A DNA stretch of 64,000 bases from a virus: positions 124,001-188,000 of IMG/VR virus record IMGVR_UViG_3300020179_000005; one strand, given 5' to 3'. The translations under genes were made by a program, and so were the position numbers. The notes beneath the pieces were generated by a model, which was not told the DNA's origin, did no database searches, and saw only the letters and a program-made list of their open reading frames with translations. This document shows positions 1,138 to 60,844 of the stretch, piece by piece (position 1 is the first letter of the stretch; each line of letters starts with the position of its first letter).

Positions 1138-1142
1138 TTAAA

Positions 1143-2810: not shown

Positions 2811-2970
2811 AAAACTTTCATCAATACTTTGATCTATAATTTCTCTTAAGTGTGTTCTTGTTAGATCTGTATCTAATTCAAAGATGTTTTCTCCAACCCT
2901 AAATACGGATTGTCCTCTTTTTTTGTCAAAACTAATTATTCCCTTTGATTCTTTTAGGTCTTCGGCAAGA

Positions 2971-4572
2971 TCACCGCGGTGGCGTAAATAATCCTTTCCC
3001 GGTTATCTCATCCAAAGTGGATGTTATCTGTACTTCATCTATAAATTTATCCTTGACTATGTTTCTTACGGCCATAGAAAGATGAGATACGTCTGCTATG
3101 TTTGTGGTTGGAGTTAGTGCTGCTGATTGAAATACCTTTGCCTGCGCCCCCCTAACCAAACTACTGTATCCTGATCTCTCTTTTTGATCTACGATCCTTA
3201 GAGCAAATGGATCTTTCTGTTCTTGCAATCCTATGTTAATATATTTCTGCACATAACTTTGAAGCATTGCATCCGTGTCCGCCATGTGTGTTCCGCCATA
3301 AATTTTATGAAACAATTGTCTGGCTTTCTCTCCTGTTTCGCCTGCTTGTTGTGCTTCTTTTTCAATTAACTCAAGAAGATTTGTCCTCATTGCTATGGCT
3401 TCTACTGAGGCCGTTGCGGCTGATTGTCCCATTTTAGCTCGTGCTAAAAATTCAGGAGAGTATAACAATTCGTTAAATCTTTTTAGGTGAGCTGCGTCAT
3501 CGAACTTCCCCGACGCATCCAAAAAAGTTTCGCCTAGCTCATCTATCTTTTGTTGCACTAGCCTATTCATATGCACTCTTGATACCTCTAAGGTATCGAT
3601 GATAAAATTCGCTTCACGGTCTGCCATTCTTTTATGAAATTTATCTGTAGCTTCCATAGCTGCTTTATGTTCACTAAAACCTGCTTGTTGTTTTGCGGTG
3701 TTCGTCATTGCCTGAATATCAAATAATACGTTATGGCCAGAAACATGATCGGCTTCCATCAATTTTTCCATGAATCTTGCGTAATTATCTAAAAAATCTT
3801 TTCCGCCTCTTGAATCACTAATAATTCTTGCTCTACTACTTCTTGCTTGTTCAGAAAAGAACTCTGTTAAAGATTTGCTTCCGGCAACTGTTATTCCGCC
3901 CAACTGTCTACTATTGTACGTAAAATTGAAATCATCCAAAAGACGTATGTTTCCATTTATGTTTTCGCTTATTGCAAATGATCTTACTTCGGAACCCTCG
4001 AATACCCCAGTTGTTTCCACGTCAAAAGTATAAATTTTTTTACCAACTAAAGAATCTGAAAGTTCTTTATAATTCGTTGTTTGCTCCAGGGTATTAACTC
4101 CCATTAAATTAGATATACCCACATTAAACGCGTCCATATCTGATATTCTTGGATTTATATTAAATATTGTTCTATTTAAAAGCGTAATTATTCCGTGATT
4201 AACATTTGTTGTATCAACGTTGTATTTAGCTGCTTTCCTATAAAGGTTTGTGCTTGGAAGTTGTTGACCTGGAAGTCCAATTTCTGCAAATAACCTTGGG
4301 AGCTTTAAAACTTCATTTGTATATTCGCTTTTCATCATTGCCATACTTGCTTCGTCGAGAATAGATAAGTCTATCTTTCCACCGGCAATCAGTGTATCTA
4401 AATTAACTCTTCCTACTTTAGCTGAATTAACTTTTCCAGTCTCTAACAGTTTTATGTATTTTTCGTGAAATTCAGAATATCTTTGCAGGAATGCTTCAGG
4501 AGTTCCGTAAATTTCCTGTAATTTCGCAACGTCTAACCCTGACGGGGCGAGGCCGCTTGTGGTGTAATCCAC
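2971..4572 (-). CDS. protein with internal DnaQ-like DEDDh 3'-5' exonuclease domain
   Basis: 533 codons from a GTG at 4572. Residues about 178-440 carry the DEDDh exonuclease motifs: Exo I FDVETTG (D184, E186), Exo II SGHNVLFD (D285) and Exo III H429 with D434 five residues later. This fold removes nucleotides from 3' ends with two metal ions. The N-terminal 170 residues are unlike any family I know, and there is no polymerase domain. The gene lies in a presumed structural operon and its frame seems to continue, after a +1 shift, into the next 555-codon frame, which would give a protein of about 1,140 residues. A virion-borne nuclease is possible but unproven. Confidence 0.8.
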   Translation of the reverse strand: MDYTTSGLAPSGLDVAKLQEIYGTPEAFLQRYSEFHEKYIKLLETGKVNSAKVGRVNLDTLIAGGKIDLSILDEASMAMMKSEYTNEVLKLPRLFAEIGLPGQQLPSTNLYRKAAKYNVDTTNVNHGIITLLNRTIFNINPRISDMDAFNVGISNLMGVNTLEQTTNYKELSDSLVGKKIYTFDVETTGVFEGSEVRSFAISENINGNIRLLDDFNFTYNSRQLGGITVAGSKSLTEFFSEQARSSRARIISDSRGGKDFLDNYARFMEKLMEADHVSGHNVLFDIQAMTNTAKQQAGFSEHKAAMEATDKFHKRMADREANFIIDTLEVSRVHMNRLVQQKIDELGETFLDASGKFDDAAHLKRFNELLYSPEFLARAKMGQSAATASVEAIAMRTNLLELIEKEAQQAGETGEKARQLFHKIYGGTHMADTDAMLQSYVQKYINIGLQEQKDPFALRIVDQKERSGYSSLVRGAQAKVFQSAALTPTTNIADVSHLSMAVRNIVKDKFIDEVQITSTLDEITGKGLFTPPR

Positions 4573-4598
4573 CTAAATTTACCGAACTGTATATGTCA

Positions 4599-5333
4599 CT
4601 AAGAGGCATTGTCTGTTTTGTCCGTATCAATAATTTGAGATTCTATGTACTCATCGAGTTCGTATGTTCCCAATTTTTGTTTCAAAAGTTTTTCTTTTTC
4701 TATTTGGATAGATTGAACCTTGTACAATATGTCGGAGATTGCTTGAGCGCTGTCTATTTGCATCTGGCCAGCTTTGGCTTTTGCTTCTCTTGTTGCCAAG
4801 AGTTGATTTCTTAAGTCTTTTCTTCTTTTATGCAGCTTGTCTTCAAGTTCAACCGCAAGATGCAATTCTTTTTTAAGTACCGGCATTCCGTTTTCATCAA
4901 TACCAATTACGTTTTCTTGTACAAAATGTTCTTTTGCCAAAAGCTTTGTTTTTCTAAGGTATTGAACTTCTTGATCAACAAGATCTCTTATCATTGACAC
5001 CTCAATGAGATTGTCTGGATGTACATCTAATTGCTCCATATACTCCATTGTGAATTGAGAAACCATTGACATTTCTATTGGACATGGATTTCCTTTTGGG
5101 GCCAGGTTTTGCTTAAGTAAGGGACAGGTATCTGCAAATATACATTTTTGAGCTTCGCAATTCATCGGGATCGAAGAAAACATGCTGCTTCGTGTTTTTT
5201 GCGGCCTTACCAATTCAACGGCTTTTGTTTTATCTTCATCCGACCAGTTTTCGGGAAAAAATAAATCCGGTCTTAGAGATTCAAATTCTTTCAGGAATTT
5301 TTTTTTGTCGTCAAATTTTTCTATGTCAGCCAT
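4599..5333 (-). CDS. hypothetical protein with Cys cluster and coiled coil
   Basis: 244 residues, ATG start. Residues 58-84 hold four or five cysteines (CEAQKC, DTCPL, NPCPI), a likely metal or iron-sulphur site. Residues about 125-230 are charged and helical, probably coiled coil. Overlaps the upstream small gene by 8 nt, showing translational coupling in the leftward operon. No family recognised. Confidence 0.75.
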   Translation of the reverse strand: MADIEKFDDKKKFLKEFESLRPDLFFPENWSDEDKTKAVELVRPQKTRSSMFSSIPMNCEAQKCIFADTCPLLKQNLAPKGNPCPIEMSMVSQFTMEYMEQLDVHPDNLIEVSMIRDLVDQEVQYLRKTKLLAKEHFVQENVIGIDENGMPVLKKELHLAVELEDKLHKRRKDLRNQLLATREAKAKAGQMQIDSAQAISDILYKVQSIQIEKEKLLKQKLGTYELDEYIESQIIDTDKTDNAS

Positions 5334-5508
5334 TAAAATCTATCCATTCAGATTGAAATTTTTCATCATTAACAAACATTTCAGACACTGCCGATTTACA
5401 ATAAGTACAATAATAATCTTTAGATATTATAACAGCTTTGTCGCTTTTTCTTTTTTGTTTTTTTGACAAAATTAAAGATAGTTGCGATTCACATCTTGGG
5501 CAGTTCAT
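5326..5508 (-). CDS. small zinc-ribbon protein
   Basis: 60 residues with two CxxC pairs (CPRC at 3-6, CTYC at 34-37), the usual zinc-ribbon arrangement. Lys-rich middle. Its start overlaps the stop of the upstream gene by 1 nt and its end overlaps the next gene by 8 nt. Role unknown; such ribbons often bind nucleic acid or act as assembly adaptors. Confidence 0.7.
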   Translation of the reverse strand: MNCPRCESQLSLILSKKQKRKSDKAVIISKDYYCTYCKSAVSEMFVNDEKFQSEWIDFNG

Positions 5509-5927
5509 TAGATTTCTCCGAGAAGTTTTAGAAGACCTTTCTGAAGTTTTTCTTGCACTGCTACATCCTGGGCGGCATTCACGAAAGTACTTACTTCTCT
5601 CATTTCATCGGGAGAAAGATAAGATGAAACCCTATACCTTGCGCCCTTGCATATGTCGCAATATATTTCTTGTTCTTCTGAATAACAGTCGCATTTTTCT
5701 ATTATTTCAAAATTCTCTAGAGCCTCTGCTGTATTTAACCATTTGTTTTTAAATAGTTTTTTTGTTTGCTCTTTGTAGGCTCTCAACTTTTGAGGATCAT
5801 TAGACAGTAAAGTTCCCATATCTAAAGAATGTTTCATTAACTCATTTATACTTTTATATAAAAAATTTGCTAGTTGAAAATCACCGTTTTTATCAATATA
5901 GTTTTTCCAGTTATTCATTGGTTTCAC
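5508..5927 (-). CDS. hypothetical protein with CxC/CxxC cluster
   Basis: 139 codons from a GTG at 5927; an in-frame ATG at 5918 is an alternative start. Helical N-terminal half, then a cysteine cluster (CDC at about 79-81, CDIC at 90-93) that could bind zinc, then a helical tail. No family recognised. Tightly packed in the leftward operon, overlapping both neighbours. Confidence 0.7.
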   Translation of the reverse strand: MKPMNNWKNYIDKNGDFQLANFLYKSINELMKHSLDMGTLLSNDPQKLRAYKEQTKKLFKNKWLNTAEALENFEIIEKCDCYSEEQEIYCDICKGARYRVSSYLSPDEMREVSTFVNAAQDVAVQEKLQKGLLKLLGEI

Positions 5928-6084
5928 CTAAATATGATTCTACTTTTGCATTTATGTATTCCATATATGGCTTAACGCCAAATCCCAAAAATGCATTGGA
6001 TGGTATTCCAAAGCCCATATTAACTCCACCCAAACCACCATTAATTATATTTTCGTCTAATTCAAATTCTTGCTCTTGTTTCAT
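5911..6084 (-). CDS. small hypothetical protein
   Basis: 57 residues, ATG at 6084. Acidic N-terminus, then a Gly-rich stretch (NGGLGGVNMGFG). Its end overlaps the next gene by 17 nt. No recognised family; called because it fills the operon gap, has an ATG start and overlaps its neighbour as the others do. Confidence 0.55.
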   Translation of the reverse strand: MKQEQEFELDENIINGGLGGVNMGFGIPSNAFLGFGVKPYMEYINAKVESYLGETNE

Positions 6085-6110
6085 TACATATCACATCTTT
6101 CTTTTTTTAT

Positions 6111-6872
6111 TTAATATCTATAGTTACTTTGTCTTCCTCTCGAAGTGCCGCCTGATCTTCTTGATTGGACAACGCTAGCAGCGGCAACTACTCCAGCTCC
6201 AATTAGTGCATTTCTTTTAAAGTTTCTACTTTTCATCAAACCTGAAAATCTACTTGCCCTTCCTGGGCCCGGATTCGGAGCTTGTCCTGAAACATCGGCT
6301 AACGGACCGGCGCCTGCTGAAGATGCTGGAGCTACTGGTCTTGTTGGTGCAGCTGTCGGCGGAGCAGCACTTATTGGAACAGGCCTACTTACCCTTGGAG
6401 TTCCTCTACCCGTTCTTCTATCAAAGGCGGCAGCATCACGAGCATGCAAATCTTCGAGTGATGGAACACGTCTAGTTACCCTTGGAGTTCCTCTACCCGT
6501 TCTTGCATCAAAGGCTTTCGCTTGGTCACCGTGCAATGTAGACCCAAAACCTTCCATATCAATTGGCAAAGAGCGGGGTGATAATCGATGCCTAAGGGCT
6601 GCCCTTCGTGAATAGCCACTCTCAAGCATTGGAATATTTTGACTGCCCCTTGGTGCGTTTTGGGGTACACCCATTCCCATATCGCCGAAACGATAATCTG
6701 CGGCTCTACTTGCTCTGCTACTTGCTCTGTTTGATACGCTAGATTTTATTCTTCCCATCGATTCCCTTGCCCTACCCATAAAGCGGGAACGGGCAGTTTG
6801 TGGTTGCATCCTTTCAAGCATTGGGATATTTTGACTGCCCCTTGGTGCGTTTTGCGGTACACCCATTCCCAT
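6111..6872 (-). CDS. repeat-containing Arg/Pro-rich protein
   Basis: 253 codons from ATG 6872. The protein contains internal repeats: two copies of a GMGVPQNAPRG...IPMLE unit (residues about 3-20 and 67-84) and two copies of a RTGRGTPRV unit. A Pro/Ala-rich linker (about 165-200) precedes a C-terminal hydrophobic segment flanked by Arg (ALIGAGVVAAASVV). The repeats exist at the DNA level too. The frame runs upstream to 6923 and overlaps the tail of the next gene, whose own reading frame there is an out-of-frame copy of the same repeat, so the two genes were probably one. Function unknown, likely virion. Confidence 0.65.
   Translation of the reverse strand: MGMGVPQNAPRGSQNIPMLERMQPQTARSRFMGRARESMGRIKSSVSNRASSRASRAADYRFGDMGMGVPQNAPRGSQNIPMLESGYSRRAALRHRLSPRSLPIDMEGFGSTLHGDQAKAFDARTGRGTPRVTRRVPSLEDLHARDAAAFDRRTGRGTPRVSRPVPISAAPPTAAPTRPVAPASSAGAGPLADVSGQAPNPGPGRASRFSGLMKSRNFKRNALIGAGVVAAASVVQSRRSGGTSRGRQSNYRY
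6619..6695 (-). repeat. direct repeat copy 1 (about 72 bp)
   Basis: Nearly identical to 6806-6886; encodes the NAPRGSQNIPMLE unit. A second shorter pair lies at 6538-6570 and 6903-6935 (the MEGFGST unit) and a third at 6395-6440 and 6475-6515 (the RTGRGTPRV unit). Such repeats allow slippage or recombination and may explain the frame loss nearby. Confidence 0.75.
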
Positions 6873-7171
6873 ATCGCCGAAACGATGAACTTGCTGCTCC
6901 GTGTAGACCCAAAGCCTTCCATGTTAATTCCAAGATTTCTACCAGCCCTCATTCTTGAAGGTCGAGCAACACGATTAATAAATGAATTACCACGTGCACC
7001 ACTCAACCTGGGTGCTCTTGCTGGATCTAAGTTTGCAGCAGTGTTGGGGGCGGTAAGACTAGAATAGGGGGTGCGACCTTGGTGTCTTCTTCCCGCATTT
7101 TGATTGATTCCGGGTCTTACTCTTACTCCATCATAATTCATACCGGGAACATCTGGAAACATGTAGGGCAT
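6746..7171 (-). CDS. N-terminal part of the repeat protein, frame lost near its end
   Basis: 141 codons from ATG 7171. The first ~88 residues are Arg/Asn/Gly-rich and end in the NMEGFGST unit also found in the following gene. From about residue 90 on, the frame reads the downstream repeat DNA in the wrong phase. A one-base insertion, or a -1 shift, in 6872-6923 would restore one long repeat protein of about 345 residues. Either a real frameshift or an assembly indel in a repeat. Confidence 0.6.
   Translation of the reverse strand: MPYMFPDVPGMNYDGVRVRPGINQNAGRRHQGRTPYSSLTAPNTAANLDPARAPRLSGARGNSFINRVARPSRMRAGRNLGINMEGFGSTRSSKFIVSAIWEWVYRKTHQGAVKISQCLKGCNHKLPVPALWVGQGNRWEE
6806..6886 (-). repeat. 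direct repeat copy 2 (about 72 bp)
   Basis: Second copy of the unit at 6619-6695, with a few substitutions. The boundary of this copy is where the reading frame of the upstream gene is lost. Confidence 0.75.
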
Positions 7172-7181
7172 TGTTGAAATC

Positions 7182-8357
7182 CTATTCTACTATTTTTGTT
7201 TTTTTACTTGGTTTCTTTAAAGAAAAAATAAAATTATCATCATTATAATCTATATTAAAAATAGTACCTTTTGGAATGGTACTTTGAACAATTATCTTAG
7301 ATATGCCAGTTTCTATTTGGTCCCTTCTTATTTGAGCCAATCCTCTAGCCCCCTTAACTGAATCTATGCCTTTTTCTATTAAAGCATCTATCACCCTAGT
7401 GTTGTACTCGGCAAAGAATCCTTTTTTGTTTAATTTTGAAGAAACTAGCTGCATTTCTAATTCTGCTATCTTTTCGCAATCTTGTCTAGAAAGATGATTG
7501 AAGATTACGATCTTGTCAATTCTGTTTAAGAATTCAGGTCTAAAATATTTTCTTACCGCGTCAAGCGTATTTCTTTCGACTAATGACTTAAGGGGTATGG
7601 CAGATGTCGATTGAACATAGTTAATGTTTTTATTGAATCCAGTACCTTTGCCTATCAAATGATCTACCGTTTTTTCGTTACCTAAGTTTGTTGTCAGGAT
7701 AATAATTGTTCCCCTAAAATCTATTATCTTACCTTTTGCATCGGTGATGGCTCCCTCGTCAAATATTGTTAAGAATGTGTTCCAAATGTCTGGATGGGCT
7801 TTTTCAACCTCATCTATGAGAACAACTGAATTTGGATTTTTTTCAATCTGATTTACTAACTGCCCACCTTCATCATGACCAACATAACCAGGAGGAGAAC
7901 CTATCAATTTTGAGTTTTCATGCTTATGTTGAAATTCGCCGCAGTCTATTCTAACCATAGGGATATTAGGATCAAATAAATAATTATGAAGAGTCTTTGC
8001 CAAATGTGTTTTTCCTACTCCAGATGATCCAGAAAATAGAAAAACTCCCAATGGCCTATTTGAATCGTTCATGTCTGCTTGAGACCTAACTAGTGCAGCA
8101 GATACAGTTTCTATTGCCTCATCTTGTCCTATGATGTTAGATTTTAGATGTTCTTCTAAATTAGCAAATTTTACTTTTTCTATTTTCTTTATCTTTTTTA
8201 TTTTTTGAGTGGGATGAGAAGAAGGTCTATCTTTATATTTTGAGATAATATTTTTTAACTCATCAAAATTATTATCCATTACATCGTCTATGTCAAAGTT
8301 AGTATTTGTGTAGGCAATTGATATCCAGTAATCTATATCAAGACCGGGATTTAGCAT
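7182..8357 (-). CDS. Clp-type AAA+ ATPase, single D2-like module
   Basis: 391 residues. Motifs of the ClpA/B/C second ATPase domain: Walker A GSSGVGKT (110-117), aromatic pore loop GYVG (157-160), Walker B VVLIDE (178-183), sensor 1 TTN (222-224), arginine finger in RPEFLNRID, and the ClpB-type C-terminal small domain. It lacks a Clp N-domain and D1, so it is about half a ClpB; residues 1-70 are unlike known Clp proteins. It could unfold or remodel proteins as a ring during head or tail assembly, or recruit a protease; no ClpP-binding IGF/L loop is evident. Start overlaps the upstream gene by 20 nt. Confidence 0.9.
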   Translation of the reverse strand: MLNPGLDIDYWISIAYTNTNFDIDDVMDNNFDELKNIISKYKDRPSSHPTQKIKKIKKIEKVKFANLEEHLKSNIIGQDEAIETVSAALVRSQADMNDSNRPLGVFLFSGSSGVGKTHLAKTLHNYLFDPNIPMVRIDCGEFQHKHENSKLIGSPPGYVGHDEGGQLVNQIEKNPNSVVLIDEVEKAHPDIWNTFLTIFDEGAITDAKGKIIDFRGTIIILTTNLGNEKTVDHLIGKGTGFNKNINYVQSTSAIPLKSLVERNTLDAVRKYFRPEFLNRIDKIVIFNHLSRQDCEKIAELEMQLVSSKLNKKGFFAEYNTRVIDALIEKGIDSVKGARGLAQIRRDQIETGISKIIVQSTIPKGTIFNIDYNDDNFIFSLKKPSKKTKIVE

Positions 8358-51424: not shown

Positions 51425-52186
51425 ATGTCTGAGTTTTCGCGTCAGAATGACGATGATTTGTTTGATTACGATCCGTCTAAGGATAAACCAAAGGTATCAC
51501 ACGATTATATTTCTTCTTCTTCTAATTCAAAAGTATCTAATGAAGTTTATGATCAGATTACAAAAAGCATTGAAGAAAACGACGATGAAAATTATTTGAA
51601 GATCAACGGTTTGCGGATAAAATTTTCTCAGGCTATTTTGAATTCTTATGATTATTGGATATCGCCAATCGGCGCCATCTCGTCTTTTGTTACTATATCA
51701 CAAGTTCTTGATCAGTTAACTGGTGGAAGATTTTCCAGTTTATACCTTTACAATTATTTGGAAACCAGTATACTTAGACGCAAACATATTATATATCTTT
51801 TGAGTCAAACATTTGATCAAGTTTCTCGGAACAAAGACGACGACGATTCTTTTAGAGAGTTTTTGGCCAGACTTGATGTGAAGGTTTCTGATTCTTATCT
51901 TCCTACTTACGTAGGTACATTGGTAAGAATTTCCTCTCACATTCTTGCCAAGGACCGCGCAATGTATATCACATTGGCAAATAAACTTGATATTGTACCC
52001 AATGCGTCTGTACTAGAGTCTGTTTCTTCACCTAGCGAAGTGTACAACAATTCTCAACAGAACGTCAAAGCGGCTTCGGATTGTTTGTTGCAGGAAACAT
52101 TCAATAAATCAGTTGACATGGCTTTTGCTGAGAAGTTGAATAATTTGAATGGCACTCAAGTAGATTATCAGCTGCGTAGCATATGA
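51425..52186 (+). CDS. hypothetical protein
   Basis: 253 residues from ATG 51425. Acidic disordered N-terminus (1-45), helical body. ATGA overlap with the protease gene. No family. Confidence 0.68.
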   Translation: MSEFSRQNDDDLFDYDPSKDKPKVSHDYISSSSNSKVSNEVYDQITKSIEENDDENYLKINGLRIKFSQAILNSYDYWISPIGAISSFVTISQVLDQLTGGRFSSLYLYNYLETSILRRKHIIYLLSQTFDQVSRNKDDDDSFREFLARLDVKVSDSYLPTYVGTLVRISSHILAKDRAMYITLANKLDIVPNASVLESVSSPSEVYNNSQQNVKAASDCLLQETFNKSVDMAFAEKLNNLNGTQVDYQLRSI

Positions 52187-52614
52187 TAAAGTCTGTTGCC
52201 ATTCTTATTGTAACGGCAGTAGCAACAGCGGCTATAAATTATGCCTTGATGCCTACACCATTTGTGTTTTTTATAATACTTGTTCTTTTGGCTCATGAAT
52301 TTGGACATTATTTTATATCTTTATTGAACAGAGCAAGTCCTGACTTACCCTATATTATACCGTTACCATTAATTGCAATAGGAATAACAAGAGTACATAA
52401 TTTTCAAGAGCTCAAGCCAAATTCCCAAAAGTCCATACTTTTTGGTGGGCCTTTGTTTGGCGTAATTACAGCTATAAGTATATTTATATATCTCCTTACA
52501 AATCCAATCATTTCCCCACTTTATATGCTGATAATAGCATTGCTTGAGATCATTTTAAATTATTTCGGTTCTGACGGTTCAAGATACCGCAGAATATCTA
52601 ACAAGGAGTTATGA
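52183..52614 (+). CDS. M50-like intramembrane metalloprotease
   Basis: 143 residues with four hydrophobic segments. HEFGH (38-42) lies in a membrane helix, and a later YFGSDGSR has the Asp-Gly of the third zinc ligand of site-2 proteases. Very small for M50. Could release membrane-bound regulators or cut signal-anchor proteins. Confidence 0.75.
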   Translation: MIKSVAILIVTAVATAAINYALMPTPFVFFIILVLLAHEFGHYFISLLNRASPDLPYIIPLPLIAIGITRVHNFQELKPNSQKSILFGGPLFGVITAISIFIYLLTNPIISPLYMLIIALLEIILNYFGSDGSRYRRISNKEL

Positions 52615-52763: not shown

Positions 52764-52938
52764 TGATTGTTGTTTTGACATACAAGGAATTTCGAGTTCT
52801 CAATCTTTGATGAACACCGCTGAAGCACAGCTTGCAAGAATACTTACCAAAATAGTGGTCGGTGGTGCTTCTATTTGGTGGAGTGTTATGGAGTTGAGAC
52901 AGTTTTTGAAAATCAGAAAAACGCAGAAAGGGTTATAA
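52711..52938 (+). CDS. small hypothetical protein
   Basis: 75 residues, ATG after GAGGAAC. Helical; coupled (TAATG) to the next gene. Confidence 0.6.
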   Translation: MTQLNRQQKIDRIQQYLNDCCFDIQGISSSQSLMNTAEAQLARILTKIVVGGASIWWSVMELRQFLKIRKTQKGL

Positions 52939-53300
52939 TGTCGTCTAACATAGAAAGTTTCAATTTTTCTTTTGCCATGGCTGCAAAAGCCAAGGATTCT
53001 TTGGAGGAGCAAGTTTCTAGCGTAGAGTCTAGGATAGAAAAGATAGTCGATCATTTTACGATAAATGACGCACCGATATTGAAGTTCATTCTCAATATGA
53101 ATCCTACCAGAGAAGACCTTAAAAAATTATCTAAAGCTTTAGATCGTTTGTCTGATTTGGTAGAAATTTATAATACATTGGATTCAAAGTTGTCGGTTAT
53201 CAATGCCGCAGAAAAGGATCCGAATTGGTTTGCTTTGGCTTTTGGTGATTTCAAAGAAGACATAGACAAAGGTATTGAGCAAATTCTAACAGAAGAATAA
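52938..53300 (+). CDS. coiled-coil protein upstream of the E2-like gene
   Basis: 120 residues from ATG 52938. Helical, probably coiled coil (20-50 and 58-90). No family; by position it may belong to the Ubl cassette. Confidence 0.65.
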   Translation: MSSNIESFNFSFAMAAKAKDSLEEQVSSVESRIEKIVDHFTINDAPILKFILNMNPTREDLKKLSKALDRLSDLVEIYNTLDSKLSVINAAEKDPNWFALAFGDFKEDIDKGIEQILTEE

Positions 53301-53321
53301 TTATAGATTGGATATAACATC

Positions 53322-54401
53322 ATGGACAAAGTGTCTTACTCATTTGTAAAGCAAGAAGATAGCATTGTCTTTCGTTCCAAGGTACAGGCATTCAACCTTG
53401 ATCATGTAACGGACAAAGACATTCGTTCTTTTTATTTGCAGTTTTCACAGTATGCTGCCTTTGATACTGGTTTGTTACCGTTGGACGGAACTGGTTTGCT
53501 TTGTGTTCGCAAAGCAGGCGAATACACACAGGTTGCCTACCAGTACAAACCAGGTAGTTATTATGTTAACTGGGGGACATACGAAAAGGATCCTGAAGCC
53601 AAAAAGTATCTTTTGGCGCAACCTTATCGAGTGGTTATAATAGATTTTAAGTCCAACAATTTGTTGGGTGCTAGAACGTTTTACACCACTACCCCTGTTA
53701 CGCATCCAGATGTCCAGTTGTATCATGTTAATCTTCCCAACATAAATTGCAGAGGGTACCGCGGCAATGGCGTTGGATGGATTTGTTTGTATCATAATAC
53801 CGATTGGAGTAGTCTGACGTTTAATGAGCGTTTGGCGCTTGCTTTGGAGCGTTGTTCCGGTTCTGAAGCATACAACGACAACAATATGTCGGAAACTGAC
53901 GGTCCGAGATTCTATCGAGACATGTACCAGAACGATGCTTCTTTTTCCTACATGTGGAATCCCAGCGTTTGGCAGAACAAAACATCTCAGGACGGTTATG
54001 AGTGGACTTTGTTTGCCCCGTGGATTCCTGTTGTAGTTGAGGGTCTCGACCGGCAGGCAGCACATTCAACTTCTTCTGAAGCTGTTCCGCTTACATTTTC
54101 AATGGCTTTGACTGGTACATACAAATCTTATTACACTGATAAGATGCCATTGAAACCCATAAATGCATTGCAGCGCAATGGAGAGAGCGTAATTACCGAT
54201 ATTACCAACTATTTTGTACAGTCTTACAATAATTCTTCAACACAGTATGTTGGTAGGGACATAATGGAGGATAGTAAGAAGTTTAGAGACTCTAGAAAAG
54301 AAGTTAACCAAGGTCAGTTGTTTGAAGAGTCTGAGTCCGAAGAAGATGAAGATCATGATGATGACGACCATGATCAAGGGGGAGAAGAAGGTCCTTTTTA
54401 G
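53322..54401 (+). CDS. E2-like ubiquitin-conjugating-fold protein (PRTRC-B-like)
   Basis: 359 residues. After a beta-rich half (1-135) comes LPNIN (138-142), the counterpart of the E2 HPN motif, then, with a short insert, GWICL (152-156) with candidate catalytic C155, DW (161-162) and the helix LTFNERLALAL, matching HPNI...ICL...W in eukaryotic E2s. It would take the Ubl from the E1 as a thioester and pass it to targets. A long C-terminal extension ends in an acidic stretch and EEGPF. The stop follows a five-U run; the -1 frame leads into the RING-like gene. Confidence 0.78.
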   Translation: MDKVSYSFVKQEDSIVFRSKVQAFNLDHVTDKDIRSFYLQFSQYAAFDTGLLPLDGTGLLCVRKAGEYTQVAYQYKPGSYYVNWGTYEKDPEAKKYLLAQPYRVVIIDFKSNNLLGARTFYTTTPVTHPDVQLYHVNLPNINCRGYRGNGVGWICLYHNTDWSSLTFNERLALALERCSGSEAYNDNNMSETDGPRFYRDMYQNDASFSYMWNPSVWQNKTSQDGYEWTLFAPWIPVVVEGLDRQAAHSTSSEAVPLTFSMALTGTYKSYYTDKMPLKPINALQRNGESVITDITNYFVQSYNNSSTQYVGRDIMEDSKKFRDSRKEVNQGQLFEESESEEDEDHDDDDHDQGGEEGPF

Positions 54402-54502
54402 ATATAAATTCTAAAGAGACTTTCGATGGTGTACCACTTACAATACTGGCTCAAGACTACATAACTGGCAGTATTGATACTGTTGATTTTGACAATACTA
54501 CA
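54371..54502 (+). other. candidate -1 frameshift / E2-RING fusion region
   Basis: The E2 frame ends GGT CCT TTT TAG. Sliding back one base on the U5 run gives TTA GAT ATA AAT and an open, protein-like frame of 35 codons up to the first possible start of the next gene (TTG 54503). No ATG or GTG occurs in those codons. One extra T in the true genome would give the same result. Confidence 0.55.
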
Positions 54503-55288
54503 TTGGTCTATTCCAATACTACTGGATTTTGGTATTCTAAAGATGGGGATTACTTGGCTGTTTGTTCAAATTGCGGTCAAGTACATTTTTGTTTTGAAGA
54601 AAATTATAATAAGTCTAATCCGTATGAAAGTTTTAATATTTGGTACCAAAATCAAGAGGCTTTCAATAATTTTTCTGATATGCCTGTTGTTATTTGTAGT
54701 ACTTGTAAAAAAGATTACATAGATGATATTTCAAAATGTAAATTATGTCTTGTTGATATACCTCCAAAAGAACATTATTCTCATGTTCACGAATTTAAAG
54801 ATACTAATCATTGTAAACATCTTATTTGTAATTCTTGTTCTAGTACTCATTGGTATCACCCTATGATGTGTCTGTGTGGCGAAGCAGTTTCAGAAGTTGA
54901 CATGTATCAAATCAAACCGATAGTTATAGATGAAATAACTAGCACGCATCATTCAGACGCATTCTTTGCTTTGAAGGATAGGCTTCAACTAGAGCATACC
55001 GATAGTGTTTATCTTTATGCTACTAAGATTTGTTCTTCTTGTTATTCAGAAAATCCATTTGATTATAATAAATTTATAAATAAGATATCAACTAATATTA
55101 ATATAGAAAGTTTGTCTTGTGTTGCTGATTCTTTGGGTGATATCGAGACAAAATATATACAATTGGTTGAGACTTACTACAAAAAGCCTACAGACGATGA
55201 TGTTGAAGTGTTAGTGCCTGCAATTTATTTACAGGCTCAAATCAAAAGTCACGGCTATGTAGGATATTTCTCTAAAGAAATAGTTTAA
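54503..55288 (+). CDS. Cys-rich protein with RING-like C3HC4 pattern (candidate E3)
   Basis: 261 codons from TTG 54503; frame open from 54374. Cysteine pairs at 21/24, 65/68 and 177/180 look like zinc ribbons. Between them: C79-x2-C82-x21-C104-x-H106-x2-C109-x2-C112-x10-C123-x-C125, which fits the RING cross-brace consensus except that the last pair is CxC, not CxxC. RING domains bring a charged E2 to a substrate; sitting between the E2-like and the JAMM gene supports that role. No ribosome site precedes the TTG, so it may be made only as a fusion to the E2. Confidence 0.68.
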   Translation: MVYSNTTGFWYSKDGDYLAVCSNCGQVHFCFEENYNKSNPYESFNIWYQNQEAFNNFSDMPVVICSTCKKDYIDDISKCKLCLVDIPPKEHYSHVHEFKDTNHCKHLICNSCSSTHWYHPMMCLCGEAVSEVDMYQIKPIVIDEITSTHHSDAFFALKDRLQLEHTDSVYLYATKICSSCYSENPFDYNKFINKISTNINIESLSCVADSLGDIETKYIQLVETYYKKPTDDDVEVLVPAIYLQAQIKSHGYVGYFSKEIV

Positions 55289-55316
55289 TTAAATAACAAA
55301 TTGAGGAGGATATGAT

Positions 55317-57089
55317 ATGACAGTACCACAACTGAATGACCTGAAGCATTTTTGGATGCCTTCAGGTGTTCCATGTTTTATCGCAGATCGTCAAGACATA
55401 TGCGATGTCGTGGAGAATATGGGTTTTCAAATATATTATTTGCTTTCGAACCACAAAACCGAAACCAAGTCGGTCACAAATAGTACTCCTTCTGCGTCGC
55501 CGCATAATTATGGTTATACCACTTATGGAAATTCAACCGTTACGTCGATAAAGATAGAAAAGAAGCCTAGACTTTTCAAGGTCGTAAACAATTACGTAGG
55601 TAGGGTAGTTGCGGTAAGTAATGACGAGTTTCCTGCTGAATTCATTGACATTGAAGACGAATGTACTTATAGCATGCCCCTCATTCCCATTGATGTTGTC
55701 AATAAGCTGGATGAGTTCTTTAGGCTTGTACACTCACAGCACGGTACGGAATCAATCGTTATACTTACATACGATACTACCAAGACCGGACCAGCAGGTT
55801 GGGGTGTTCTGGTTCCGGAACAAACAAACACCGCAGCCCATTGCAAGTATGATGCCGACAGCATCGTTGCATTAAAGCCCGAGAACGTCATGATTGTTGG
55901 TTCGGTACATTCGCACCCGGATATGCCTGCCTATGCTTCAGGCACAGATCATGACGATCAAGCTGATTTTGATGGTTTACACATAACCTATGGTTGGCAA
56001 AAGAATGTAAACAATGGTGCCACACAGTATTATGCCGAGTTACAAATGGCAGGCACAGGATACAAACTTGACATGGAAGATGTTTTTGAAACTGTAACGG
56101 TGCAGAAAGATCCTGATCCTGAAGTTGTGGAGTGGTCCACTAAAGTAAAAAAAGCCTACCCCCCCTACCAGGGGGGATACAACACCATTCAAAATGGTCG
56201 GCACACGCAAACAACTCAAACGACGACACCACAACAGCAGCCTGGGCTTCAGACTGGGAAGGCGGTTGGGGGATCTAGAACTCCTTTGAAGCAGGCCAGA
56301 TTTCTGGAAAAGTACGAGGATATGCTGGCAGCTTATCATATGCCGTACAACGCCGTTCTGGCTATTGAGGCAGAGCTTGATGAGCGGAACAGAGGACATT
56401 GTCTTGTGTGCGAAACCGAGATTAATATCTCCGATGTAAGAATCGGTTTGTGTCCCACATGCGAAGTTCCCCTTGTTCATCCAGAAGACCATATGTCTAC
56501 GATTGTTGAAAAGGTAGAGTCTTATTTGATCGACAATTATTTGCCGTATACTACTCCCGTTTATTTGTATTCGTTTACGGATGATAATCTTCCAAGCATA
56601 ATGAATATCAGTGACGAATTGAGATATTATACGGGTACGGCAATGAAGCCTATCGTTCAGAATTCTACCGTCAAAAAGGCGGATGTTTCTGACCTGTCTG
56701 ATTATGTTCATTTGCCAACACATACAGAGGACGTAATACCCATAGACAGTGCTTTCAGCTCTGGACATACTGCTTGTTGTGGTGTAAGGATAGAGAATGC
56801 TGAAGCTGATTGCGTTTGTGCCGTGAGACTGATGCCCGATGATGTTGTGGATTTTGATAGTTATTTGGCTGAAAATGCTGATATATATGTTCCGAATTCT
56901 CCATGCCATGATTGTACCCATTTTTATTCCATCAAATGCCCTGCGTTTAGAGAGCTTTTGACAGAATGGGTAAGGTCTAAAGATAGTTTCAACATTATTC
57001 TTTACACACATTCCGTCAATGGTTGCAGCAATTATGAACATTATGCAAATTCTTTTGCTGAAATTCAATATAATGACGAAATTAGATAG
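55317..57089 (+). CDS. JAB/JAMM isopeptidase with C-terminal zinc-finger modules (PRTRC-A-like)
   Basis: 590 residues, ATG after GAGGAGG. The JAMM motif is complete: H198-S-H200-x7-S208-x2-D211 in VHSHPDMPAYASGTD. Such metalloproteases cut isopeptide bonds after the Ubl Gly. A Gln/Thr/Pro linker (about 300-330) follows, then a zinc ribbon CLVC...CPTC (residues about 363-383) and more cysteine clusters near the end. Much longer than usual PRTRC-A or RadC-type JAB proteins, so the extra half may bind substrate. In the same operon as E2, RING-like, E1 and Ubl genes. Confidence 0.85.
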   Translation: MTVPQLNDLKHFWMPSGVPCFIADRQDICDVVENMGFQIYYLLSNHKTETKSVTNSTPSASPHNYGYTTYGNSTVTSIKIEKKPRLFKVVNNYVGRVVAVSNDEFPAEFIDIEDECTYSMPLIPIDVVNKLDEFFRLVHSQHGTESIVILTYDTTKTGPAGWGVLVPEQTNTAAHCKYDADSIVALKPENVMIVGSVHSHPDMPAYASGTDHDDQADFDGLHITYGWQKNVNNGATQYYAELQMAGTGYKLDMEDVFETVTVQKDPDPEVVEWSTKVKKAYPPYQGGYNTIQNGRHTQTTQTTTPQQQPGLQTGKAVGGSRTPLKQARFLEKYEDMLAAYHMPYNAVLAIEAELDERNRGHCLVCETEINISDVRIGLCPTCEVPLVHPEDHMSTIVEKVESYLIDNYLPYTTPVYLYSFTDDNLPSIMNISDELRYYTGTAMKPIVQNSTVKKADVSDLSDYVHLPTHTEDVIPIDSAFSSGHTACCGVRIENAEADCVCAVRLMPDDVVDFDSYLAENADIYVPNSPCHDCTHFYSIKCPAFRELLTEWVRSKDSFNIILYTHSVNGCSNYEHYANSFAEIQYNDEIR

Positions 57090-57101
57090 AAGGTGGATAA
57101 A

Positions 57102-57860
57102 ATGCAATCAAAAAGATTTGTTATCGTAGGTACAGGCGGCATAGGCACGTGGCTTGCTGCTGGTCTTGTACGTCTTTTGGAATGGAAAATGCCTGGTTCT
57201 GGTTTGATTCTCGTAGACGGAGACAACTACGAAGAGAAGAACAAGGAGCGCCAGGATTTTACAAAGTTAGGCAACAAGGCTGTTGTGAAAGCGGCCGAGT
57301 TGACGCCTCAGTTTCCCAAGACCACGATCATACCGGTACCAAAGTGGGTCGTGTCTGACGACAACACTGGAGTTTCCGCTGATAGTGATTCTCCCAGAAT
57401 TAAGGCTTCCGACTTGTTGATTGACGGCGACGTTGTTTTTGCTGTCGTCGATAATTTTGCTGCTCGCAAGATACTTTTCGACGCCGCTGCAAAACTTATA
57501 AACGTCGATGTATTCACAGGCGGTAACGACGATGCTTTGTTCGGTTCCATCTATCATTACCAAAGAAGAGATGGCAAGAACATAACTGAACATCCTGTCG
57601 TTTTTCATCCTGAATATGAAAATCCTCCTGACAAAAATCCAGGCGAACTTTCTTGTCAGGAAAGATCTAAGCTTGAGGGCGGTACGCAATTATTGGCTAC
57701 CAATATGGCGGTGGCCGCATTCATACTTGGTAGGGTTCATAAGACCATTGTTCTAGATCAAAGTCCCGAAGAAACCGAAATCTATTTTGATTTGGGTTTG
57801 GGAAAATCTGAGCCCTACAACAGAATGGTTTCGCAGGTCAATCAACCTGCGATGGTATAA
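57102..57860 (+). CDS. E1/ThiF-like Ubl-activating enzyme
   Basis: 252 residues from ATG 57102 (AAGGTGG before it). Rossmann nucleotide site VGTGGIG (9-15), LVDGD (37-41), the E1-type ERQDF (49-53), VDNFAARKILFD (116-127) and a candidate thioester Cys (C185 in GELSC). It would adenylate the C-terminal Gly of the Ubl and may hold it as thioester. Size matches the PRTRC ThiF family rather than MoeB/ThiF of cofactor pathways; no thiamine or molybdopterin genes are near. Confidence 0.88.
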   Translation: MQSKRFVIVGTGGIGTWLAAGLVRLLEWKMPGSGLILVDGDNYEEKNKERQDFTKLGNKAVVKAAELTPQFPKTTIIPVPKWVVSDDNTGVSADSDSPRIKASDLLIDGDVVFAVVDNFAARKILFDAAAKLINVDVFTGGNDDALFGSIYHYQRRDGKNITEHPVVFHPEYENPPDKNPGELSCQERSKLEGGTQLLATNMAVAAFILGRVHKTIVLDQSPEETEIYFDLGLGKSEPYNRMVSQVNQPAMV

Positions 57861-57885
57861 AACAACAACACAATAGGAGAATAAA

Positions 57886-58137
57886 ATGGATCAGTCAGCA
57901 TCGCAGAATCAACCTTCTGCATCGCAAGGTATTGCCAATGTTCGCTTTGGTGTATACAATCAGCCAAGCAACATTGGAGGTAAAACAGTTTCTCAGGCAA
58001 GAGAGCAGTTTTCTCGACTGTGGGGCATTCCCACGGACGCTGTTGCCTACAAAGGCAAGGACAAACTTGATGAAAACTATGTCATCCAGCCAGGCGACAA
58101 CGTGGAGTTCCACCGTCGCGCAGGCGAGAAGGGCTGA
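57886..58137 (+). CDS. ubiquitin-like beta-grasp protein ending in Lys-Gly (PRTRC-C-like)
   Basis: 83 residues, ATG after AGGAG. Disordered Gln/Ser start (1-15), then a beta-grasp pattern: VRFGVYN strand, helix TVSQAREQFSRLWG, and ...VIQPGDNVEFHRR before the end GEKG. PRTRC protein C has the same size and ends in a similar ...KG. The chain already ends in Gly, so no trimming is needed. Substrate-linked Ubl in this system. Confidence 0.82.
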   Translation: MDQSASQNQPSASQGIANVRFGVYNQPSNIGGKTVSQAREQFSRLWGIPTDAVAYKGKDKLDENYVIQPGDNVEFHRRAGEKG

Positions 58138-58236: not shown

Positions 58237-59835
58237 ATGTTAAACGAAATAAAGATTGGTTATCCTGCTTTATGGATAAAAACCACTGAGTATTCTAGGG
58301 TTATTAGTAATATCGTGTCTTTTGATTTCAGAGACTATTATATGATAGATCCACAGCAAGGGTTTTCCAAGTACGTTGATTCAGATTGGAAACCGGTGCT
58401 CGTAGAATTTACTGACGAATCAGGCACAGTCGCTCATGTTCACACTTATGATTTATCTATTGCCGTAAATCATATAAAGAATAATACCGTTTCTGGAGGC
58501 AAGGCGCCTACGTTTTTGCTTCCCATACATGGCAAGCCAGAGGTTAATTTGTTTAGGTACGTGCCTATGGTGTATCAACTTGTTGAAAAGTATCGCAAGT
58601 CCTTTTGGACCGACACCATGTATGAAGAAATGCAGTTCATATTTCTTTCCGCTTTCGATGTGCCTGTTGATTATCCCAACCTTTTCAAAGTCATAGGTCA
58701 TGGAGTTCCCACTTCCGAAGAGTTGTTCCACATTGTGGATCATATTAATGTGTCTTCACATGGTCGTTTTGTTAATCCAGAAACCGTAAAAGATCTCGTA
58801 AAATCTGGCATTGGTCTAACGGAAACTGATTTCATCGATTATTGTTTGACTTCAATAGTCGACAACGGTCTTTTGGATCCAAAGTACATATACGAGAGAA
58901 AGATGGCCACCGTTAAACAAAAGGGCATTCTTGAGATCATAAAGCCTCGGTTGACATTTGCCGAAATCGGTGGTCTTGATAACATCAAGAACATAATCAA
59001 ACGTACCGCTTTCCTTAGGAACAATAGACAGAAAGCTGAGTCTTTTGGTGTGTCTCCAATCAGAAGAATATTGATGGTTGGTGTCCCCGGCACTGGCAAG
59101 TCGGCCATCTGTCAAGCTACCGCTAGTGAACTTGGGCTTGATCTTGCCAGAACCGGCATCAGCCAAGTCATGAATTCTTTTGTTGGTCAGTCAGAAGCCA
59201 ACATGCGTGCGGTGTTTAATCAGATTAGAGCTATGACGCCTTTGTGCGTTTGGATTGACGAGTTTGGTCGTGATCTTTCTGGTGGTTCGAGTTCGTCACA
59301 AGTTGACGCCGGTACCACAGATCGTGTCCATGGCGAGTTCTTAACTGGATTACAGGAATTACCAGAAGATACATTTTTGATGTGTGCCGCAAATCAACTT
59401 GATAATTTGCGACCAGAGATGCTTCGCGCTGATCGTTTCGACAAGATAGTGTTCGTTGGTTTGCCATCTTACAGTGAGCGTGTAGAGATACTAAAGATAT
59501 ATTTGTCTGGTATAGATACCGATCACGAGTACGATTATGATGCCCTTGCAAGAGTAACCGAAAATTTCACCGGTGCAGAGATTTCTGCTTTGATTAAAGA
59601 AGTCAAGTTCTTTGTTGTTGCCGATGAATTTCGTGCAATCAACACCCAGGACATTATGGCTCATGCCCCTAATGTTAAGAACATAATTTGGAATAAACAT
59701 AGAGATATGATAAAATCAATGTACAGTTATGCCTTGGCACAATGGGATTGGGCTTCTTCTGAACAACAGATCGATGCACAAAACGTACTATCTGGTCGTA
59801 CCGTTGATCAGCCGCAGGTTACTTGGAAAATATAA
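58237..59835 (+). CDS. Ycf46-like AAA+ ATPase
   Basis: 532 residues. N-terminal 230 residues as in Ycf46-type proteins, then AAA+: Walker A GVPGTGKS (282-289), Walker B LCVWIDE (336-342), sensor region CAANQLDNL and RADRFD arginine finger, with SF...GQSE pore-side pattern. Ring ATPases of this type remodel proteins. Its place right after the Ubl gene suggests it acts on tagged proteins, but this is inferred. Confidence 0.85.
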   Translation: MLNEIKIGYPALWIKTTEYSRVISNIVSFDFRDYYMIDPQQGFSKYVDSDWKPVLVEFTDESGTVAHVHTYDLSIAVNHIKNNTVSGGKAPTFLLPIHGKPEVNLFRYVPMVYQLVEKYRKSFWTDTMYEEMQFIFLSAFDVPVDYPNLFKVIGHGVPTSEELFHIVDHINVSSHGRFVNPETVKDLVKSGIGLTETDFIDYCLTSIVDNGLLDPKYIYERKMATVKQKGILEIIKPRLTFAEIGGLDNIKNIIKRTAFLRNNRQKAESFGVSPIRRILMVGVPGTGKSAICQATASELGLDLARTGISQVMNSFVGQSEANMRAVFNQIRAMTPLCVWIDEFGRDLSGGSSSSQVDAGTTDRVHGEFLTGLQELPEDTFLMCAANQLDNLRPEMLRADRFDKIVFVGLPSYSERVEILKIYLSGIDTDHEYDYDALARVTENFTGAEISALIKEVKFFVVADEFRAINTQDIMAHAPNVKNIIWNKHRDMIKSMYSYALAQWDWASSEQQIDAQNVLSGRTVDQPQVTWKI

Positions 59836-59843
59836 GGAGACAT

Positions 59844-60467
59844 ATGTCAGACATGGATCAAATAGAATATCAGATGTCTCAGACTGCTGAGCCTGTTGTA
59901 TCTGATATCTTACAGAAAGATTACGAGAAAGATCTTTACAAGAAATGGTTTAGGTCTAAAACTCAAAGTGGATTTTTGTCCATAAGGCCTTGGTATCAAG
60001 GTCTTAAGTTTAAGCTGGACATAGGTAAAACTTCGCCCGATGGCAAACTCATTTCTAGCACGATGGTATATTTAGATGCCATAGATTTTTCTGGTTATTT
60101 AAATTCTATTGCTATTGGTATAGGAAGCATAAATTTTCCCGCAAACAGCAAAACCGGTATTCCAACCGATGAAGGTTTTGTTTCTTACGGTGGAGGCATA
60201 ATAGAGTCAAAACCTATTTCTAGGATTTTCAAGTCTCATTATTGGCAGAATTCCGATAATAGTTTTGATTCTTCTGCGTTTGTTTGGAAGTGCGGTCATT
60301 TTGCTGCTAGAAAAACTGAGTCAGGTGCATTCATCCCGGACATGAAATCTTCTTTGTCCGTTGATAGCATAAAGGTTACTAGATCAGAAATAGTCAGCAT
60401 CTCTCATATGTTGAATCTTTCGTTGATATCTCACGTGGCAAACAAATCAGATTGGTATGCCGTATGA
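59844..60467 (+). CDS. hypothetical protein
   Basis: 207 residues from ATG 59844 after AAGGAG. Beta-rich middle with Gly-rich turns. ATGA overlap with next gene. No family. Confidence 0.68.
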   Translation: MSDMDQIEYQMSQTAEPVVSDILQKDYEKDLYKKWFRSKTQSGFLSIRPWYQGLKFKLDIGKTSPDGKLISSTMVYLDAIDFSGYLNSIAIGIGSINFPANSKTGIPTDEGFVSYGGGIIESKPISRIFKSHYWQNSDNSFDSSAFVWKCGHFAARKTESGAFIPDMKSSLSVDSIKVTRSEIVSISHMLNLSLISHVANKSDWYAV

Positions 60468-60844
60468 CCGAACAGGGAAATTATGATACTGACTTTTCTA
60501 CCATACAAATTGCAATTGATAATATGTTGAACGTTCTCGCCAAAGAAGTCACTTCGGTTCAAAAGGATATCGAACAGAGAGTAGAAGCAGTCGAAAAACA
60601 GATTGCTACTTTAGTTTTGGCGTACGGCGAACAGGCTGTTTTTATGGAAGCTTTGATAGGTCAGATAGCTTTTTCTACCGTTGAAGCCCAAAAGTCTTTT
60701 CGTGATACTTTGAAAGAGGCAAGAAAGTCTATGTTGGAGGTAATGCAGGATGGAACACAATCTTTTGTGGCAGACGGCGACAAAAAAATTGGACAAGCCA
60801 TTGCAGACGTGGTTGCAGAAAAGCTATCTGACCTTGGTCAATGA
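60464..60844 (+). CDS. coiled-coil protein
   Basis: 126 residues from ATG 60464; long heptad region (20-100). Coupled to both neighbours. Confidence 0.65.
   Translation: MTEQGNYDTDFSTIQIAIDNMLNVLAKEVTSVQKDIEQRVEAVEKQIATLVLAYGEQAVFMEALIGQIAFSTVEAQKSFRDTLKEARKSMLEVMQDGTQSFVADGDKKIGQAIADVVAEKLSDLGQ

Follow-up and report, generated by a model that had tools for sequence, protein, structure and literature searches.

A probable ubiquitin-like conjugation cassette of the PRTRC kind in large phages

The best-known machineries for ubiquitin-like tagging of proteins are those of animals, plants and some bacterial plasmids; tagging of this sort also serves in bacterial anti-phage defence. This work deals with a row of genes in a window of 64,000 nucleotides (the whole stretch of DNA analysed, positions 124001-188000 of the 209,701-base virus record G000, IMGVR_UViG_3300020179_000005), where an E2-like (conjugating) protein, a zinc-rich open reading frame (ORF), a JAMM metalloprotease candidate, an E1-like (activating) enzyme and a candidate ubiquitin-like protein (Ubl) are encoded one after another (Table 1). 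Judging from their sequences, these genes probably constitute a phage-encoded and reversible Ubl conjugation system of the PRTRC ('type 6d') kind; the conserved gene order, the invariant motifs and the specific pairing with PRTRC profiles point to a phage version of that system. New in this version are the zinc-extended E2, the Cys-rich extension of the JAMM protein and the accompanying AAA+ gene, all of them kept throughout one clade of large phages. No phage cassette with E1, E2, Ubl and JAMM figures among the literature matches listed, as far as titles and abstract openings tell, which does not amount to absence in print.

The viral nature of the record is indicated by a match to phrog_2, which we take to be the large-terminase family, at 2.8e-31 (figures of this form are E values). 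As the same family also matches 13 of the 14 cellular genomes used as controls, this match alone is mild evidence of a virus. Other window genes match the UvsX-like recombinase, helicase and ATP-dependent protease families of PHROG.

Table 1. Genes and reading frames of the cassette and its flanks (window positions)
Feature	Position	Strand	Remarks
UP1, small conserved protein	52938..53300	+	ATG at 52938; directly upstream of E2
E2-like protein (UBC-like, PRTRC_B-like)	53322..54401	+	359 aa; candidate catalytic Cys155; LPN for HPN
Inter-frame stretch, zinc frame open	54398..54502	+	E2 stop to first TTG; coding-like codons
Zinc-rich ORF	54503..55288	+	261 aa from TTG; homologue of E2 C-terminal extension
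JAMM/MPN+ metalloprotease candidate	55317..57089	+	590 aa; Cys-rich C-terminal region
E1-like adenylating enzyme, ThiF family	57093..57860	+	255 aa; Cys188 in PGExSCQ
Ubl candidate	57886..58137	+	83 aa; tail ...EFHRRAGEKG
AAA+ ATPase, CDC48/PAN type	58237..59835	+	downstream of Ubl; FVG pore-loop-1-like motif
D1, conserved protein after AAA+	59844..60467	+	ATG 59844; listed ORF begins TTG 59823
D2, small conserved protein	60464..60844	+	ATG 60464; listed ORF begins TTG 60452

Gene order and motifs in related contigs

Relatives were gathered from IMG/VR by scans with E1 and E2 and then with their alignments, which led to 49 different places, spread over 48 contigs; several of these contigs are near-copies, as are some of the distinct homologues in the motif counts below. 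The complete set of E2, JAMM, E1 and Ubl is present in 42 of the 49 places, and the other seven are interrupted by contig ends, according to gene positions compared with contig ranges. A survey of co-occurrence in related phages had been suggested in an earlier note made on this DNA from its letters alone; the order E2-JAMM-E1-Ubl and the single strand are kept in 42/42 complete places. UP1 lies upstream in order in 41 of them and the AAA+ gene downstream in 41, the 42nd contig stopping 2.4 kb past the Ubl; D1 and D2 are each present in 41/42. The cassette had originally been placed from position 52938 onwards; the ATG at that position is real but belongs to UP1, and the E2-like gene begins at 53322.

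The motifs that the earlier note had read in these genes were all recovered, and they are conserved in the homologues. The window E2 holds LPNIN and GWICL within a wider motif, H.N.PN.NC.GY..VGW.CLY, that is invariant in all 39 distinct homologues; beside the candidate catalytic Cys155 there is a second invariant cysteine, Cys143, and downstream of the Cys, His248 is invariant in 20 aligned rows. The JAMM gene contains the full motif H-S-H-x7-S-x2-D and matches Pfam Prok-JAB at 1.6e-6, over the cut-off; HSHPx6SxxD is found in 36 of 38 homologues, the two exceptions (L025, L040) being truncated where their contigs stop, and in the alignment the C-terminal region has invariant Cys. The E1-like protein matches Pfam ThiF (PF00899) at 1.2e-11, also over the cut-off, and carries ERQDF and Cys188 after GEL; the motif PGExSCQ is invariant (32/32 distinct homologues) and GxGGxG occurs in 31 of the 32, the exception (L011) being truncated by a contig end.

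The 83-residue protein ends in Lys-Gly, and its GEKG tail is invariant in 31/31 distinct homologues. Most of these (27/31) stop at GEKG, and four carry two more residues (SL twice, NI and LA); the Ubl of L096, outside the 31, has SK after GEKG. Such a two-residue tail past a fixed Gly would be expected of a precursor trimmed by a JAMM protein.

Several divergent members depart from the window in their gene architecture. L085, L086 and L096 have a short JAMM gene and a separate gene for its C-terminal zinc region, and the JAMM gene is short in L087 and L088 too. Additional genes occur between Ubl and AAA+ in L085 and L086, the same interval is a 2-kb gap in L088, and in L096 an HNH-like gene (by eye) follows directly after the Ubl. 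The closest contig, L002, is 100% identical to the window over twelve genes compared and is therefore no independent lineage. The contig IMGVR_UViG_3300042868_009074 (267.8 kb) holds two different copies of the cassette (L030 and L035); each copy matches the figures of another contig (L031 and L036, respectively), so it may be a chimera of two phages.

Outside IMG/VR, the window E1 finds one record of the phage collection at 1e-5, and the window E2 finds none at 0.1; tblastn of the window JAMM part gives six phage records at E 1, and that of the window Ubl seven at E 10, which were judged to be chance. A scan of cellular-genome contigs with the E1 alignment returned 49 stretches that fit the pattern, one of which is a true relative. 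The contig PXAT01000157.1 (10 kb, from an Ectothiorhodospiraceae metagenome-assembled genome, MAG) also holds the cassette gene set and looks like phage sequence inside the MAG.

Comparison with PRTRC genes and cassettes of named phages

PRTRC genes were taken from eight plasmids, with two remoter plasmids added for B, A and ThiF, and 11 phage families were compared with 7 PRTRC families by hhalign. The four best of these 77 comparisons are E1-ThiF, JAMM-A, E2-B and Ubl-C, the other 73 standing at E 0.025 or worse; together with the terminase match, this agrees with the initial proposal of a PRTRC-like set of ThiF, JAB, Ubl and E2 genes on a virus record. The JAMM pair reaches 3e-8 (95% probability) and the E1 pair 1.5e-23 (99.6%). 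The links E2-B and Ubl-C rest on specificity, that is, on being among the best of the 77, because their probabilities are weak. The tails of PRTRC_C are GTKG or GAKG in 6 of 8 rows (the L101 piece was ended at its GAKG in the alignment), like the phage GEKG.

In outline, the phage set fits the type 6d operon described by Iyer et al. 2006 (PMC1779556): a Ubl, a JAB protein with an extra N-terminal domain, an E1 and an E2-like protein that is without the usual His and has a fixed downstream His. Both systems pair up in four core families, weakly so for E2 and Ubl, keep the order B-A-ThiF, lack the His of HPN in E2 and the CxxC pairs in E1, and end the Ubl in GxKG. On the other hand, the phage genes stay under the NCBIfam equivalog cut-offs (E1 against PRTRC_ThiF 8.6e-5, 22.0 bits, far under 144.75; JAMM against PRTRC_A 0.0051, 16.4 bits, far under 101.8), the phage Ubl is placed after E1, the phage E2 and JAMM proteins have zinc-rich extensions and an AAA+ gene lies alongside. 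No relative of PRTRC E, F or ParB was detected among the 11 phage families tested, and ParB_N was not found in the G000 record, which may be incomplete.

A rival explanation takes the E1 and the Ubl for a ThiS/MoaD-like pair that acts in sulfur carriage or in adenylation/thiolation of small molecules, with no protein tagged and with other roles for the E2-like and JAMM proteins. The Ubl sequence is ThiS-like by eye, and as a single sequence the E1 scores about equally with the NCBIfam ThiF/MoeB model (5.4e-5, 22.9 bits) and with PRTRC_ThiF. The profile of the family, however, favours PRTRC ThiF over MoeB/ThiF, for which hhalign gives 1.3e-10. CxxC pairs are absent from 27/27 phage E1s and from 10/10 PRTRC ThiF proteins, and two such pairs are present in 9/10 MoeB/ThiF proteins; the pattern SC...E...Q...N is found in 27/27, 5/10 and 0/10 of these groups, respectively. 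In a tree of 44 E1s, 17 MoeB/ThiF proteins form one clade (100/100) and 14 phage proteins another (100/99); this tree is unrooted, leaves the order of the groups unresolved, and includes 14 of 28 phage rows, and one of 18 MoeB/ThiF loci was dropped as a duplicate. A grouping with thiamine or molybdopterin enzymes, which the earlier note had named as evidence against its proposal, is thus not what was observed: the phage E1 is nearer to PRTRC ThiF and lies outside the MoeB/ThiF clade. Bearing in mind also the constant company of a JAMM protein and of an E2-like protein whose Cys is invariant, the sulfur-carrier explanation is improbable.

The phage-borne version of this system, as originally proposed, is indeed found on a virus, although it is not confined to the window clade, since named phages hold cognate sets. 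Bacillus phage vB_BauM_KLEB27-3 (OM634661.1, L110; 216.7 kb, with a named host strain), reached through the divergent E1 of L088, carries the cassette as gp194-199 (730-6720). Its gp199 consists of four tandem Ubl repeats, each ending in AGVKG, in a polyubiquitin-like manner; it matches Prok_Ub at 5e-27 and PRTRC_C at 8.8e-17, both over cut-off, although such a repetitive protein yields many chance rows, and its repeats match the phage Ubl profile at 2.1e-5 and the PRTRC_C profile at 2.6e-6. The other members stay under cut-off: the E2 (gp196) with Prok-E2_D at 2.7e-4 and PRTRC_B at 0.0011, the JAMM protein (gp195) with PRTRC_A at 3.1e-7 and the E1 (gp194) with PRTRC_ThiF at 7.7e-31. In the tree this E1 stands with PRTRC, outside the window clade.

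In Vibrio phage D69 (OZ195729.1, L092) the cassette spans genes 0301-0307 (3259-7816), with a protein of three repeats that each end in GTKG (PRTRC_C profile, E 0.0068), an E2-like protein (PRTRC_B 0.0057, profile 6.2e-7), a JAMM protein (PRTRC_A 4.2e-20) and an E1 whose annotated form is short (PRTRC_ThiF 9.3e-5). The JAMM and E1 matches of D69 recur in the phages D181 and D148. Salmonella phage Arash (OQ632216.1, L091) has gp246c-248c (1519-4539), with JAMM at 1.8e-21, E1 at 7e-15 and an E2-like protein with Prok-E2_D at 0.024 and profile 1.7e-6; no Ubl was found among the neighbours tested. All three phages therefore share PRTRC-type E1, E2-like and JAMM genes, and KLEB27-3 and D69 a Ubl too. 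They differ from the window in their tandem Ubl repeats, of which KLEB27-3 has four and D69 three, and in E2s that, at 229-255 aa, are too short for the zinc extension.

Several results weigh against a conjugation system in the window. The Pfam and NCBIfam scans back E1 and JAMM and leave E2 and Ubl to indirect evidence. As a single sequence the E2 matches no family of Pfam, PHROG or NCBIfam at E 1, UQ_con was not found in a scan of the G000 record, and the HPN histidine is replaced in LPN. With PRTRC_B its hhalign E value of 0.003 is the best of its row, with a weak probability of 10%, and adding gp196 of KLEB27-3 brings it to 0.00078 with only 25%. The Ubl gives just a chance Pfam row at 0.19 in the same three databases; against PRTRC_C it reaches 0.0036, again the best of its row, with a weak probability of 9%, and 0.00038 with only 36% when one KLEB27-3 repeat is added. 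Against the window E2 profile, the E2s of KLEB27-3, D69 and Arash score 0.66, 0.23 and 0.2, which is no match; they match PRTRC_B alone, for which reason the E2 link of the window family is the weakest part of the argument. In addition, the many near-copies mean that 49 places are not 49 independent lineages.

The fold of E2 was approached through an AlphaFold2 (AF2) model of the L004 protein, which includes the zinc extension (550 aa, 62% identical to the window E2, 27 alignment rows) and was predicted with a mean local confidence (pLDDT) of 80.4 and a global score (pTM) of 0.59. In the VIA comparison, 30 of 50 rows are UBC enzymes or complexes by title, with Z of 2.7-4.2 and spanning model residues from about 38 to 210-259. 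The same comparison has an adverse side: all Z values are below 5, values that low may reflect just a shared arrangement according to the warning of the tool, the top row (4.4) matches a PHD-like domain to the zinc part, and entries unrelated to E2, such as CapZ and PURA (3.8), score level with the UBC rows; Foldseek gave no match at 0.001. As regards the concern that a model might lack a UBC fold, the matches are mostly UBC but all of them weak, and they count as suggestive of a UBC-like fold.

Sequence searches of the PDB gave weak or chance rows throughout: for E1, a designed protein at 0.0098 and Uba4, ThiF-type proteins, TcdA and Uba5 at 0.04-0.1; for JAMM, an N11-like proteasome subunit at 0.074; for E2, calpain-7 at 0.018 and, with the core alone, a histidine kinase at 1.7; and for Ubl, chance rows from 0.022.

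The zinc-rich reading frame and the E2 extension

Between E2 and JAMM the earlier note had described a RING-like gene and regarded it as the novel ingredient of the row. A long open frame with Cys/His spacing is indeed present, with 304 open codons (chance about 3e-9 under base composition alone), and its spacing in the window, C-x2-C ... C-x-H-x2-C-x2-C ... C-x-C, recalls a true RING E3 gene inserted at this place. Nevertheless, 36 of the 38 distinct E2s whose C-terminus is present (the E2 of L061, cut by a contig end, reduces the 39 to 38) carry a fused C-terminal extension with 2 to 9 CxxC, and the two with no CxxC past the E2 core are those of the window (row L012) and of L003 (row L049). 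An hmmsearch with 11 of these extensions matches the window zinc ORF at 1.5e-11, the best of 200 shuffles reaching 0.62. By sequence comparison, then, the zinc ORF is a homologue of the E2 C-terminal extension of the relatives, displaced by a stop, and a RING E3 gene as the novel ingredient is not supported.

The alignment of the ORF with the extensions conserves the CxxC pairs alone; C-x-H is found in the window only, the last pair is C-x-C there, and an octet of the C3HC4 type with two interleaved zinc sites, as in a RING, is not conserved. The AF2 model of the ORF is of low confidence (pLDDT 58.5), and Foldseek found no match for it at 0.001. For model residues 58-119 the VIA rows, all with Z under 5, are in the main ribosomal zinc proteins; others are zinc fingers of the PHD and RIM types, with Z of 3.6-4.6, and these speak for a RING. 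Zinc modules, perhaps treble clefs, are favoured over a RING by the shared CxxC pairs, the poor model and the mostly ribosomal rows, and an inserted E3 gene, already weakened by the homology, is hardly probable. The module can also be lost, because L003, the nearest non-identical relative (E1 86%), has just 64 bases between E2 and JAMM and is without it.

How the displaced module would be produced in the window admits several answers. The window E2 ends in ...EGPF followed by TAG, and an xPF end is found in 27 of 39 distinct E2s. From 54374 onwards the zinc frame (-1) contains no stop, and its first candidate start is the TTG at 54503, preceded by neither ATG nor GTG and itself without a clear ribosome-binding site. 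The codons between the E2 stop and this TTG, 35 in number, score 0.245 bits per codon; 53% of in-frame gene windows score at or below this value (a control that uses the very genes on which the score was trained), and it is reached by 2.4% of other-frame open windows and 0.35% of random open windows. Such gene-like codon use favours translation of the 35 codons. The sequence at the stop is CCT TTT TAG, and the RNA fold downstream of it is nothing notable (z -0.59). The zinc module may thus be made separately or from a non-standard start, by -1 slippage on CCT TTT TAG, or it may be the result of a recent break and be on its way to loss; a possible programmed -1 frameshift has support from codon use and none from RNA folding.

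Neighbouring genes and possible role of the cassette

The AAA+ protein encoded after the Ubl matches Pfam PF00004 at 2.7e-23, over cut-off, the IetA models at 8.5e-29 and NCBIfam CDC48 at 6.4e-35, under cut-off, and its aromatic-hydrophobic-Gly motif (FVG, FIG, YIG or WIG) is present in 34/34 distinct sequences. Upstream of UP1 a candidate membrane protease of the M50 type (window 52183-52614; Peptidase_M50 5.6e-6, 26.3 bits, cut-off 27.2) is present in 27/42 complete places. No clear tail gene was seen among the scanned neighbours of the cassette; the best PHROG row of UP1, at 0.0022, names a tail-lysin family, which a chance coiled-coil resemblance probably explains.

If the cassette is a conjugation system of the PRTRC kind, the E1 would adenylate the C-terminal Gly of the Ubl and hand it to Cys155 of the E2, which, in the course of infection, would move it onto amino groups in proteins of the phage or the host. 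The zinc-rich extension could act as a built-in substrate adaptor of the E2, E3-like in role, and the JAMM protein would trim Ubl precursors and take the tag off again. The AAA+ neighbour might plausibly work on tagged proteins or complexes, a weaker element of the scheme. A more far-reaching version is a phage axis like that of ubiquitin and Cdc48, in which E1, E2 with its zinc E3 module, Ubl, JAMM and an AAA+ unfoldase mark and extract phage or host proteins and in which the window makes two E2 forms by the -1 frameshift; this version is rather unlikely. The AAA+ family also occurs in phages without an E1 or E2 match (122 records at 1e-5), so its link to the cassette may be only positional, which counts against the scheme. 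Relatives of D1 or Ubl were sought after the AAA+ genes of phages JP1, RcMenchie, Dylan and RHph_I4, with no match; the axis is attractive but unproven, because the family is found without the cassette and its neighbours there are not D1 or Ubl relatives. In Rhizobium phage RHph_I4 (L017, 8238-8948), where the region read holds no such cassette, a related AAA+ gene is followed by genes annotated DUF1257 and DUF2997.

Ubl and JAB genes have also been described in phages in another context. The Ubl could then be an assembly factor in virion or tail processing, as in lambda TAP-I (Ubl) and TAP-K (JAB), a pair reported among phage tail genes in PMC1779556. The E1 and the E2-like gene of Arash are annotated as 'structural protein', which could mean presence in the virion, and the UP1 row mentioned above points the same way. 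The lambda-type clusters, as that text describes them, are nonetheless without E1 or E2 and belong to tail genes, and no clear tail gene is evident among the scanned neighbours of the window cassette, whose E1 and E2 active-site motifs are invariant. A role in tail assembly is therefore regarded as very improbable.

The main rival accepts real conjugation and assigns it to counter-defence, with the cassette tagging or untagging host defence proteins or jamming a pathway of the Bil or CBASS type, perhaps with the JAMM protein as main actor. Host Ubl systems do act against phages, according to PMC10097602 (CBASS) and PMC11354881 (Bil), and the many JAMM-type proteins of Borg elements are suggested in PMC12660748 to counter host tagging. 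BilABCD and CBASS Cap2/Cap3 share with the phage set the bacterial E1-E2-JAMM logic in phage-host conflict, although they stand on the defence side. BilD has two adenylation domains according to PMC11354881, unlike the single-domain phage E1. CBASS has a fused E2-E1, unlike the separate phage E2 gene. The PADLOC models give no match to the phage E2, JAMM or Ubl at 0.1, and its E1-E2 models match the phage E1 through the adenylation part alone. Besides, E1, E2 and Ubl are kept whole beside the same genes in all 42 complete places, which looks likelier for a core function than for a patchy accessory one. Counter-defence is accordingly held to be rather unlikely, and the analysis leans towards tagging in a core step of infection.

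The operon of Caldiarchaeum subterraneum, as presented in PMC5654768, also unites Ub, E1, E2, JAMM/Rpn11 and a small zinc protein. It differs from the phage set in being an archaeal cellular system whose RING finger protein is shown to be an E3 and whose pro-ubiquitin is processed to a Gly-Gly end, unlike the phage Ubl.

The presence of a fixed cassette across dozens of large phage contigs suggests that phages too may use Ubl tagging as a standard tool. To our knowledge, the role of the plasmid PRTRC genes is still open, and the phage cassettes offer a setting in which to ask what those genes do. The named phages D69 and KLEB27-3, the latter with a polyubiquitin-like gene and a known host strain, make direct tests possible.

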